From Acidobacteriota bacterium (GTDB lineage Bacteria > Acidobacteriota > Holophagae > Holophagales > Holophagaceae): a stretch of DNA of 41,166 nt. Under the pieces are notes generated by a model, which saw nothing but the letters and a program-made list of their open reading frames with translations, was not told where the DNA came from and did not search any database. The translations under genes and the position numbers were made by a program. Shown in pieces: positions 24,601 through 27,906 of the stretch. The stretch lies in the NCBI GenBank assembly GCA_016213735.1, contig JACQZU010000013.1, forward strand, positions 1 through 41,166, given 5' to 3'. Within the stretch, counting starts at the first letter, position 1. Each line of letters begins with the position of its first letter.

Positions 24601-25050
24601 TCAGGCCGGCATTTCCAGTTTTTCCCGGCGGCCGCGAGCCCAGGCCAGCAGGGCGTGGAGCAGGTAGGCCCCCACGAACAGCAGGCTCGAAACCCCGTGG
24701 ATCCAGGCGAAGGCCGCTCTCCAGGCCGGGTCCGTCACGGCCTGGATGGCGTAGCCCGAGAGGATCATCGGGGCCATCCCCAGGGCCAGGAAGGCGCCGC
24801 TGTGACGGCCGGCATTCTTTCCGCTCCGCCACCCGGGGAACACGTGGGAGCGGAGCAGGGCGCCCAGCAGGAAGACCAGCGCAGGGGATAGGAGCAGGTG
24901 GAGGTGCTGGAGCGCGCCCTGGAGGGGGTGGGGCTCCGGTCCGAAGTCGCCGGGCCGCAGCCCGAAGTACCGGAACCAGCCGTAGGCCAGGCCGGTCGCC
25001 GCGGTGAGGAGCGTGGCCAGGTGAAGGCAGAGGCGTTCCGGGAAACTCAC
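24601..25050 (-). CDS. Four-helix membrane protein with conserved histidines, probable haem b electron-transfer subunit
   Basis: A 149-residue integral membrane protein with four hydrophobic helices resembling DUF4405/cytochrome b561-like proteins. Histidines are placed in or next to helices as expected for haem b ligands: H10 in helix 1, H49 and H51 in helix 2, H69 after it, H118 in helix 3 and H132 in helix 4. It starts with GTG at 25050, and the preceding gene's stop overlaps it (GTGA). Its place behind apbE, a porin and an FMN-binding protein suggests it carries electrons from the membrane quinone pool to the flavoprotein outside the membrane. Haem binding is inferred, not shown. Confidence 0.75.
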   Translation of the reverse strand: MSFPERLCLHLATLLTAATGLAYGWFRYFGLRPGDFGPEPHPLQGALQHLHLLLSPALVFLLGALLRSHVFPGWRSGKNAGRHSGAFLALGMAPMILSGYAIQAVTDPAWRAAFAWIHGVSSLLFVGAYLLHALLAWARGRREKLEMPA

Positions 25051-25571
25051 GGCCGCTCCGCGTACAGGATCCGGAAGAGGGCAAGGGAACGGCGGGCGGC
25101 ATCCACCAGGGCATGGGCGCTGAGGGTGGCCCCCGAGAGGGGGCGGATTCCCCGTTTGAGGGAAAGCTCCTCATCCAGTCCTCGCCCTTCGAGCTGACGG
25201 ACCCAGGCAGCCTTCGGAAGGTATTCCAGGGGCTCCCGGAAGCTCACCACCTCCACCCGCCGCAGGTGGCCGCCCGCCTCCACCGCCACCAGGACGGTTT
25301 CAGGAAGCGTGCGGACCCGGTGCGTGTCGAAGAAGGCCACGCCGAGGAATTGGTCTCCCGCCCAGGCTTCGTAGGCCACCACCCAGCCGCTTCCGGGTTC
25401 AACCTGGGCCAGGGACCTCACCCGTTGCAACTGGGCTTCGCCCAGGATGTGTTCCTTCCGGACGCTCCGGGCCCCGGGAAAGGCCAGGGCGAGACCTTCG
25501 GTGGGTGTCGGAAGGGCCGCCGCCAAGCTGAGGCTGGCGGCGCCGGTCAGGATGCTTCGGACCCCGAGCAT
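25047..25571 (-). CDS. Secreted FMN-binding-domain protein, likely flavinylated
   Basis: A 174-residue protein with an N-terminal signal or anchor segment (LTGAASLSLAAAL) followed by one FMN-binding domain of the NqrC/RnfG type. The attachment motif S146-G-A-T149-L-S lies near the C-terminus, with T149 the predicted site where ApbE links FMN through a phosphodiester bond. A strand pair (VVAYEAWAGDQFLGVAFFDTH) and the LVAVEAGGHLRRVEVVSFREPLEY stretch are typical of the fold. Its ATG at 25571 shares one base with the porin stop (TGATG), and its stop overlaps the next gene's GTG. With apbE in the same unit the flavinylation call is strong. Confidence 0.85.
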   Translation of the reverse strand: MLGVRSILTGAASLSLAAALPTPTEGLALAFPGARSVRKEHILGEAQLQRVRSLAQVEPGSGWVVAYEAWAGDQFLGVAFFDTHRVRTLPETVLVAVEAGGHLRRVEVVSFREPLEYLPKAAWVRQLEGRGLDEELSLKRGIRPLSGATLSAHALVDAARRSLALFRILYAERP

Positions 25572-26893
25572 CAGAAGTAGTAGCCCAGCGCCGCGGTGAA
25601 CTGGTTCCGCCCGGTGGAAGCGGCATTGCGGATCCGGCTGTAGTCCGCCTTCACGGCAACCTGGGGGATGGGCTTGAAGACGAACCCCGCCGTGGTGATC
25701 CGTTCATCCAGGGCCGAATCCCGGACCACGCCCGGGGCCACTTCTGCCTGCCGCTGGATCCGTTCGGCCCGGACGAAGGGGACGAGGGCCAGGCGCGAGT
25801 CGGCCCGGGCCAGGAGGTCGTAGCCGAGTTCCCAGTAGTGTCCCTGCTGCCGCGTGCCCACTTCCCGGGCCGTCCCGCTGGCCGGCAGGCCTGCGGCATC
25901 CAGGGTCAGGCGCACCGCCAGGATCCTGGCCTGCCAGCCCCGCCACTTGTAGTCGGCGTGGACGTCCACGAGCCGGGTCCCGAGCGAGGGTTGGCCGTCC
26001 GCAGGCTGGCTGTTGCCCGTGAAGAAGCTGGCTCCCACCAGGGCGCCGGGAAGGGGGGTCCAGTCCACCCGGCCCGTCAGGGCGAAACTCTCCGCGATGG
26101 ACCGGGCCCCTTGCTGGCGGCCCCCGCCGATGCCCGACTTGCTGAAGCGGGACCCGTCCAGCCCGGCCACGAAGTAGGCGCGGTAGCTCCACCCCTCGCC
26201 CCACTCTCCGTGAACGCCCGCGCCGTTTTCCCGCCAGGTGGTGGGGATGAGGGTGCGCTCCAGGGCCGGCCGGGCCGCCCCCAGGAAGGTCGGGGGCTCG
26301 TGGGTTTCGTTGATGAAGCCCACGGGGATTGGGACCATCCCCGCCCGGACGTTGAAACTCCGGTAGAGCAGGAAGTCCAGGTAGGCGAACTCCAGCTCCA
26401 CGTCGCCGGGCCGGTTAGCCTTCACGTCCGTCACCACCCCGCTGGCGTTCTTGGTTACCGTCTGGGACCCGGCCGTGTAGGCGTGCTCGAACTCCAGTTC
26501 CATGTTGAACAGGAGGTTCTCGTTGAACTTGTACCCGGCGTAGAGGATCTGCCGGTAGAAGTCCAGGCTGTTGGTCTTGGGGCTGTAGGTCCCATTCTCC
26601 AGGTGGGCCGAGAAATTCTCGTAGACCAGTTCGCCGTAACCCCCGATGGAAAGTCCCGCCTTCACGGTGTAGACCTTGGAGGCCGCCGGCGCCAGGCCGT
26701 GGCGCCGCTCCCCCGCCCCGGGCATCTCCGCCCCGCTCCGCTGGCTCTCGAGTTCCCTGGACAGGGCGTCCAGCCTGCGCTCCAGTTCCGCCACCCGCTT
26801 TTCTGTTTCGGGGGCGGTCCTCGGAGGGGCTTCCTGACCGTTCAGGGAGGCGGCCGCCAGGGCCAGGCTCAGGACTGGGAGCAGGGGTTTCAC
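25571..26893 (-). CDS. Outer-membrane porin-like beta-barrel protein
   Basis: A 440-residue protein with signal peptide MKPLLPVLSLALAAASLNGQ, a short coiled coil (TEKRVAELERRLDALSRELES, about 30-52), then a long series of alternating strands ending in a terminal aromatic strand (FTAALGYYF), as in outer-membrane barrels. Segments such as GDVELEFAYLDFLLYRSFNVRAGMVPIPVGF and the coiled coil resemble Porin O/P-like proteins. It starts with GTG at 26893, overlapped by the apbE stop (GTGA). In this operon it may admit a substrate (for example a chelated metal or an electron acceptor) for the periplasmic flavoprotein; the substrate is unknown. Confidence 0.82.
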   Translation of the reverse strand: MKPLLPVLSLALAAASLNGQEAPPRTAPETEKRVAELERRLDALSRELESQRSGAEMPGAGERRHGLAPAASKVYTVKAGLSIGGYGELVYENFSAHLENGTYSPKTNSLDFYRQILYAGYKFNENLLFNMELEFEHAYTAGSQTVTKNASGVVTDVKANRPGDVELEFAYLDFLLYRSFNVRAGMVPIPVGFINETHEPPTFLGAARPALERTLIPTTWRENGAGVHGEWGEGWSYRAYFVAGLDGSRFSKSGIGGGRQQGARSIAESFALTGRVDWTPLPGALVGASFFTGNSQPADGQPSLGTRLVDVHADYKWRGWQARILAVRLTLDAAGLPASGTAREVGTRQQGHYWELGYDLLARADSRLALVPFVRAERIQRQAEVAPGVVRDSALDERITTAGFVFKPIPQVAVKADYSRIRNAASTGRNQFTAALGYYF

Positions 26894-27834
26894 AGGGGAT
26901 CTCCGTTCGTGAGGGTCGGTCGGTGGGAGCGGAATCGGGAACTCATCCCCACCCTTCCGTCGAGGTGGAGGAACAGGGCGGCCACGCCTTCGCGTTCAGC
27001 CCAGGCGGCGCCCGCCGCGGGCCCCAGCACGTAGAGGGCGGTGGAAAGGATGTCCGCCTCCAGGGCGGACGGGGCCAGGACGGACACGGACCCCCAGGCC
27101 TCGCAGGGCTGTCCGCTGCGGGGGTCCAGAATGTGCCGGCCTCGCTCGGAACACCCGCTGGTGCTGAGACTCTCGTCGCGGAGCTGGAGCGAGACCCGGG
27201 GGCGGGTGCGGTTGGCGGGGTCCGCGATGGACACGGGCGCAGGGTCCCCCCAGGCCAGCAACTGTCCGCCGAAATCCAGGCAACCCGTGGCCACGCCGAG
27301 GGCCCGGGCCCGGCGACGCCCCGCGTCGAGGGCGTAACCCTTGAGGAAGGCCCCTTCCTCGACCCCGGCCCCCGCCACGCGGAGCCGTGCGGTCCCCATC
27401 TCGGCATCCAGGTAGAGGAGGCCGACCCCGGAGGCCTCCCGGGCTTCCAGCAGCTCCCTTGGACCCGGATTCCGCCCTCCTTCCCGGGTGCCCCAGACCT
27501 TTAGCAGGGCCATCAACACCGGATCGAAGGCCCCTTCGGTCCTCCGGGCCCACCGCTGGCATTCCCCCAGGAGCCCGAGCCACTCCGCGTCCAGCCGGAC
27601 GGGGCGCCCTCCGGCGCCGTTCAGGCGGGACCAGGAAGAGGTGGGTTCCCAGGTGGAGCATGCGGCCTCGATGCGGGCCACTTCCGCCACCAGGCCCTCG
27701 CCGGCCAGGGCGGCGGCGGGACCCGACAGCTGGATCCGGAGACGGGTCCCCATGGCGAGGACCTCCCGGTCCACCTGGGGCGTGGGGGCCAGGAGGGCGA
27801 GAAGGAGGGGGGCGGGGGCGAGGATGCGGATCAT
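26890..27834 (-). CDS. apbE: FAD:protein FMN transferase
   Basis: Attaches FMN from FAD to a Ser/Thr in the flavinylation motif of extracytoplasmic proteins. The 314-residue protein has a signal peptide (ILAPAPLLLALLAPTPQ) without a lipobox. Family motifs are MGTRLRI (28-34), GAFLKGYALDAG (161-172), CLDFGG (185-190), HILDPRSGQP (234-243) and ALEADILSTALYVLG (257-271), whose acidic residue binds Mg2+. The target is very likely the FMN-binding protein two genes downstream. ATG at 27834 gives a proper signal peptide; the in-frame TTG at 27906 lies inside the operator region and is rejected. The ribosome-binding site is weak, and an inverted repeat ends 10 bases upstream of the ATG. Confidence 0.93.
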   Translation of the reverse strand: MIRILAPAPLLLALLAPTPQVDREVLAMGTRLRIQLSGPAAALAGEGLVAEVARIEAACSTWEPTSSWSRLNGAGGRPVRLDAEWLGLLGECQRWARRTEGAFDPVLMALLKVWGTREGGRNPGPRELLEAREASGVGLLYLDAEMGTARLRVAGAGVEEGAFLKGYALDAGRRRARALGVATGCLDFGGQLLAWGDPAPVSIADPANRTRPRVSLQLRDESLSTSGCSERGRHILDPRSGQPCEAWGSVSVLAPSALEADILSTALYVLGPAAGAAWAEREGVAALFLHLDGRVGMSSRFRSHRPTLTNGDPL

Positions 27835-27844
27835 GGGTGTCTCG

Positions 27845-27861
27845 TTGAGATCAAGTCTCAA
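27845..27861. promoter_or_regulatory. Fur-like inverted repeat, site 1
   Basis: TTGAGATCAAGTCTCAA is a perfect TTGAGA/TCTCAA dyad with a 5-base centre. It lies 10 bases upstream of the apbE start and resembles a 7-1-7 Fur box (TGAGAAT-like arms). Site 2 shares the pattern TTGAGA-N5-TC-x-CAA. Regulator identity is inferred. Confidence 0.6.
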
Positions 27862-27889: not shown

Positions 27890-27906
27890 TTGAGAATGAG
27901 TCGCAA
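27890..27906. promoter_or_regulatory. Fur-like inverted repeat, site 2
   Basis: TTGAGAATGAGTCGCAA matches site 1 in both arms except one base (TCGCAA for TCTCAA), with centres 45 bases apart. The left arm TGAGAAT is typical of Fur boxes in several Gram-negative groups. The spacing of four to five helical turns would allow cooperative binding. Confidence 0.55.

Follow-up and report, generated by a model that had tools for sequence, protein, structure and literature searches.

We analyzed a 41,166-nucleotide stretch of an Acidobacteriota genome (assembly GCA_016213735.1, contig JACQZU010000013.1; hereafter the window), which carries a compact operon encoding ApbE, a porin, a flavin mononucleotide (FMN)-binding protein and a four-helix membrane protein. 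Our results suggest that this operon is likely an iron-responsive module for assimilatory ferric reduction that works with the ferrous-iron importer FeoAB. The set points to iron by two independent lines: the Feo, DtxR and Fur genes that neighbor it in other bacteria and a promoter box that it shares with feoAB. The window genome (3.59 Mb in 28 contigs, 97% complete) belongs to the Holophagaceae, the family of Geothrix. The genes, in operon order, and the candidate regulatory sites are the following:

26890..27834, minus strand: apbE, operon gene 1, 314 residues with a signal peptide; extracytosolic flavin adenine dinucleotide (FAD):protein FMN transferase
25571..26893, minus strand: porin, 440 residues, GTG start; N-terminal coiled-coil-like helix and outer-membrane beta-barrel
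25047..25571, minus strand: FMN-binding protein, 174 residues; periplasmic, RnfG-like, with an SGAT flavinylation site at Thr149
24601..25050, minus strand: membrane protein, 149 residues, GTG start; four helices, predicted diheme cytochrome b
27845..27861, unstranded: palindrome 1, iron-box candidate, TTGAGA-TCAAG-TCTCAA, a perfect 6-5-6 palindrome
27890..27906, unstranded: palindrome 2, iron-box candidate, TTGAGAATGAGTCGCAA, one mismatch; Fur-box-like TGAGAAT-G-AGTCGCA

All four reading frames are open at 24601-27834 on the minus strand, and successive genes are joined by stop/start overlaps (GTGA between apbE and the porin gene, TGATG between the porin and FMN genes, and GTGA between the FMN and membrane-protein genes). 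The operon is self-contained, since a plus-strand gene begins upstream and an unrelated same-strand gene lies downstream.

The conservation of this gene set was assessed in 20 loci of near relatives, 60 from across Acidobacteriota, 5 on plasmids of Alpha- and Betaproteobacteria with known names and 80 on named genome contigs, the Proteobacteria being sampled through the named contigs and the plasmids. The contigs included Geothrix fermentans, G. oryzisoli, G. limicola, Deltaproteobacteria, Myxococcota, Nitrospiria, KSB1, Ignavibacteria, Aquificaceae, Kiritimatiellales, Methylococcaceae and Campylobacterales. After removal of duplicates, 150 non-redundant loci with the FMN gene were retained, from Acidobacteriota and roughly twelve further groups; these loci were picked by similarity to the window FMN protein, so that the counts describe its family and not all FMN_bind proteins. 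An outer-membrane barrel was found on the same strand in 136 of the 150 loci, 130 of the window porin type (the porin profile was iterated and may take in other porins) and six of the DUF6662 type, and several of the 14 loci lacking a barrel end at contig ends. In 124 loci the barrel gene is the direct 5' neighbor of the FMN gene. A small membrane protein is encoded in 145 loci (103 window-like, 42 of a second type), and apbE was found in 115. The trio of porin, FMN protein and membrane protein is the core of the set, and its synteny is conserved far beyond chance. The original prediction, which called for conserved synteny of porin, FMN_bind and apbE genes, is upheld in this respect across the sample, except that it had regarded a dedicated porin as the unusual part of the unit: the barrel is instead the usual 5' neighbor of the FMN gene, and a view of the porin as a locally inserted gene was discarded.

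Some loci depart from this arrangement. In six of them (L042, L043, L075, L076, L131 and L132) the gene 5' of the FMN gene encodes, instead of the porin, a DUF6662 protein that is probably also an outer-membrane barrel. L030, L035 and L080, which represent Geothrix limicola and its relatives, have a multicopper oxidase gene between the porin and FMN genes, and L035 has two porins. Directly 5' of the porin-FMN pair, a CCP_MauG diheme peroxidase gene is present in L041, L078 (an Ideonella dechloratans plasmid), L134 and L139. Finally, at L032:5781-6899 the porin and FMN genes are separated by a gene for a secreted 372-residue protein that matches no Pfam family and presumably resembles the TIGR03118 family. 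Multicopper oxidase genes were found in three and diheme peroxidase genes in six of the 150 loci, neither being present in the window operon. The additional oxidase and peroxidase genes of these relatives suggest that the electron chain may be adaptable.

The first line of evidence for iron comes from neighboring genes, whose identities were assigned by Pfam on a subset of loci. Among the first four loci listed, a Nitrospiria bacterium (L236) presents the order FTR1, FeoB, DtxR-FeoA, porin, FMN protein, membrane protein; a KSB1 bacterium (L244) the order porin, FMN protein, membrane protein, DtxR, FeoA, FeoB; and a member of Ignavibacteria (L246) the order FeoB, porin, FMN protein. In the Acidobacteriota loci L087, L102 and L117, FeoB and DtxR genes are found just upstream of apbE, a position occupied by Fur-family regulators in other loci. 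FeoB was identified in seven loci where about 0.4 would be expected by a crude estimate, and Fur-family genes were found in 17. Altogether, FeoB, DtxR or Fur lies near the set in 24 of the 108 loci from outside Holophagaceae.

The second line of evidence is the promoter palindrome. The perfect form TGAGA-N5-TCTCA was detected in 28 of 35 Holophagaceae apbE promoters and the remaining seven match it at 9 of 10 positions, a score of at least 9 being reached by 2.3% of 240-base-pair (bp) windows in a background from which the apbE promoters were not removed. In seven of eight genomes, the feoA promoter presents a box at the feoA start that matches 9 or 10 of the 10 positions. We then consider the longer 17-bp box, TTGAGA-N5-TCTCAA, with at most one mismatch. 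The window genome has five sites, two before apbE (27845 and 27890), one before feoAB and two elsewhere; the Geothrix oryzisoli genome has two, at apbE and feoA; and a third genome has three, at apbE, feoA and one other place. A genome-wide control with the reversed pattern yielded no site. In the same genome, apbE and a recognized iron gene (feoAB) have a promoter box in common, as would be expected of a Fur regulon, and one DNA signal appears to control both the operon and the ferrous-iron importer. The Fur box of Gammaproteobacteria is TGANAATNATTNTCA, and the operon palindrome resembles it. Two FUR-family proteins are encoded in the window genome, where no DtxR-family match was found, and it is probably a Fur-family protein that binds the TTGAGA-N5-TCTCAA palindromes.

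Two further boxes were observed away from these operons. A perfect TTGAGAATTATTCTCAA box is located at G000:C6:132902-132918 (L167:3403-3419), just upstream of the gene for a 169-residue secreted protein with no Pfam match (P0005), which may likewise belong to the regulon. A one-mismatch box at G000:C10:21696-21712 (L286) lies beside a gene with an NSVCGCAAA motif, which is bacilliredoxin-like (BrxA/B).

The flavinylation components were identified with differing ease. The apbE product matches PF02424 over the full profile (positions 1-266 of 266) with 176.4 bits against a curated cut-off of 25.6 (E 1.1e-51), and its D261 and other family residues are invariant. Taken alone, the FMN protein reached 16.2 bits against PF04205 (FMN_bind), below the cut-off of 22 (E 0.016); a single-sequence phmmer search of it against the PDB gave no match, nor did a scan of the named genome contigs with the single protein as query. 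Support for its family membership comes from relatives: 19 of 19 match FMN_bind, the best at 1.7e-12, and their profile matches RnfG chains in the PDB at 2.1e-13. The SGAT motif occupies residues 146-149. T149 is invariant in the 19 relatives and, among 79 sequences, 78 have Thr at this position and one has Ser. Each protein is the sole member of its type found in the window genome, which makes this pair the genome's only flavinylation system.

A confident model of the membrane protein presents four helices with a predicted local distance difference test (pLDDT) score of 90. Helix 2 contributes H51 and H69, and helix 4 contributes H118 and H132, all four being invariant among 19 and among 40 sequences; H49 is likewise invariant in the 40 close relatives of the window-type protein. 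The former four residues form two invariant transmembrane histidine pairs placed for two bis-histidine hemes, as in a diheme four-helix cytochrome b, and the protein is predicted to hold two b hemes stacked across the membrane. Both the segment linking helix 2 to helix 3 and the C-terminus are basic; by the positive-inside rule, H69 and H132 would face the cytosol, and H51 and H118 the periplasm. The best structural matches of the model include HyaC (hydrogenase cytochrome), CybB (superoxide oxidase) and FdnI (formate dehydrogenase). At the sequence level, we obtained a partial match to Ni_hydr_CYTB (3.7e-06, 27.3 bits, under the curated cut-off of 30.1) and a weak one to PF14358 (DUF4405; 14.5 bits against a cut-off of 26.7). 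There was no Pfam match to the NapH, MsrQ, PepSY, DsbD or NQR/RNF-like classes, and the cytochrome profile had no match in the PDB. These analyses bear out the parts that had been called from the letters of the window alone, namely four overlapping minus-strand genes, an ApbE, a flavinylation motif at T149 (Thr or Ser in 79 of 79) and histidines in the helices of the last protein.

A second membrane protein without a Pfam match, in which HFH and THL are conserved in one helix, replaces the cytochrome at L236:6480-6989 and in about 42 other loci. This type was found in Deltaproteobacteria, Myxococcota, Aquificota, Nitrospiria and Methylococcales.

No Pfam family matches the window porin itself, but 11 of 13 relatives match Porin_O_P (PF07396), the best at 2.9e-10. 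Its AlphaFold2 model (pLDDT 84.1) consists of barrel strands and an N-terminal helix of coiled-coil type. Foldseek retrieved OmpU, PorB, OmpT and OprP as the best matches (E about 1e-11 to 1.2e-12), which are 16-stranded porins and identify the model as a barrel; a search of the PDB with the porin profile gave chance coiled-coil matches only. Charged residues are strongly conserved at E132/E134/E136/H137, H198/E199 and H312. A mirror-tree comparison adds little: the FMN-porin correlation is 0.90 over all loci and 0.51 within Holophagaceae, not above that of FMN and ApbE. We also considered whether the porin is itself flavinylated like the DUF3570 protein and rejected this, as the porin contains no [S/T]GA[S/T] motif.

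Together, the four products suggest the following pathway. ApbE would flavinylate the periplasmic FMN protein at Thr149, and the porin would admit ferric iron or small ferric chelates across the outer membrane. The two bis-histidine b hemes of the four-helix protein would carry electrons from a donor, probably quinol, along a path from the inner heme to the outer heme, the FMN on T149 and finally periplasmic Fe(III). The Fe(II) formed in the periplasm would then be imported by FeoB, and a Fur-family protein would probably repress the operon at the palindromes when iron is plentiful. The hemes, the covalent FMN, the electron donor, the direction of electron flow, the substrate of the porin and the binding of Fur to the box are inferred. 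The original prediction had likewise led electrons from the four-helix protein to a flavinylated protein of the periplasm and on to an acceptor, perhaps a metal chelate. This path is supported by the motifs, the invariant histidines, the predicted fold and the synteny, and iron as the metal gains independent support from the Feo, DtxR and Fur neighbors and from a palindrome that, in Holophagaceae, is shared almost exclusively with feoAB. Because of the gene context, we favor iron assimilation through FeoB over respiration of a metal chelate.

Several observations weigh against this interpretation. Only the above 24 of 108 loci outside Holophagaceae show Feo, DtxR or Fur genes within the piece of sequence seen, and within Holophagaceae no iron gene adjoins the operon, whose one link to iron there is the promoter box. 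Some feoA boxes share bases with the start codon, and their right half may be partly driven by coding. The sequence matches of the cytochrome all fall under curated cut-offs, and with helical bundles a Z of about 10 is suggestive, not decisive. In the operons of L034, L036, L038 and L039, from four genomes of Holophagaceae, apbE, the FMN gene and the cytochrome are retained without the porin. Finally, multicopper oxidase or diheme peroxidase genes belong to the units of some relatives, where the electrons may serve other partners.

We therefore weighed alternative functions. The chain might be respiratory, gaining energy by passing electrons to Fe(III) or to some other acceptor outside the cell. 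Members of the Geothrix family, known for Fe(III) reduction, hold the operon, G. fermentans among them, and flavinylated proteins serve respiratory chains elsewhere (PMC8238504). We consider this function unlikely, however, given the promoter box common to feoAB, the Feo, FTR1 and DtxR neighbors in other phyla, the single FMN domain with no multiheme partner seen in the operon, and the lack of the FMN gene in at least six genomes of the genus to which Geothrix oryzisoli belongs. It is more improbable still that the set supplies electrons to a periplasmic oxidoreductase, either a multicopper oxidase or a diheme cytochrome c peroxidase, iron being incidental: the oxidase gene between porin and FMN gene in three lineages, including Geothrix limicola, and the CCP_MauG gene preceding the porin in Ideonella and some Acidobacteriota would fit this idea, but such genes occur in a handful of the 150 loci and not in the window operon. 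Slightly less probable again is a role in the redox chemistry of another metal or chelate (copper, manganese) or in oxidative-stress repair under a PerR- or Zur-type regulator. The Fur family does include PerR, Zur and Mur and one further box adjoins the bacilliredoxin-like gene, but the other main box site is feoAB in all three genomes scanned genome-wide. Assimilatory ferric reduction feeding FeoB is the function that we retain as the most likely.

Comparison with known systems places the set among flavinylation-based pathways. It shares ApbE, an FMN-binding protein and a heme-type membrane protein with published flavinylation clusters (PMC8238504) and with the DUF4405/FezC cytochromes (Huang et al. 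2024, PMC11334425). Flavinylation clusters have been linked to iron transporters (PMC8238504), and some are tied to iron transport or Fur, like the window set. Five electron-transfer classes (NapH, MsrQ, PepSY, DsbD and NQR/RNF-like) have been defined by their own Pfam/KEGG matches (Meheust et al. 2021, PMC8238504); in contrast to these and to DUF4405, the window membrane protein is short, has four helices and comes nearest to cytochrome b561/HyaC types. The porin is a further difference, being a regular member of the window set: the words porin and FeoB are absent from the main texts of PMC8238504 and PMC11334425, and among the papers searched for a link of flavinylation, porin and FeoB we found no description of such a porin-containing set. 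RnfG and NqrC have the FMN_bind fold and a threonine flavinylation motif in common with the window FMN protein, which differs in being stand-alone, secreted and the genome's only FMN_bind member, with no Rnf or Nqr complex around it. Among porins, the relatives match the Porin_O_P family (OprP/OprO) and the window model resembles 16-stranded porins including OprP; in contrast to that family, the window porin has an N-terminal coiled-coil-like helix and motifs of its own, ExExEH and NExHEPP. The DUF3570 protein (PMC8238504), of about 420 residues and encoded with apbE, is similar in size to the window porin but is flavinylated at its [S/T]GA[S/T] motifs. We conclude that the set represents a variant form of extracytosolic electron transfer by flavinylation, with a porin as a conserved component.

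In its working, the set may resemble periplasmic reductases that supply FeoAB with Fe(II). For inorganic iron, Bradyrhizobium depends on an as yet unidentified reductase acting before FeoAB, and its periplasmic ferric (siderophore) reductase FsrB, likened here by description only, is similar in that Fe(III) is reduced outside the inner membrane and Fe(II) imported by FeoAB; FMN, in contrast to the window set, is never mentioned in that work (PMC10760861).

More speculatively, and with considerable doubt, the barrel might deliver ferric iron directly to the FMN protein, or dock it, forming one device that reduces iron on its entry into the periplasm. If true, this barrel-FMN device would represent reductive iron import without a siderophore receptor or TonB in a dozen phyla. 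More broadly, the set would place a porin in a flavin-based iron pathway. Many bacteria take up iron through FeoB, which requires Fe(II), but the enzyme that forms this Fe(II) is often unknown, as has been stated for inorganic iron in Bradyrhizobium (PMC10760861). The set constitutes a specific candidate in about a dozen phyla, and deletion of a single short operon would put it to the test.

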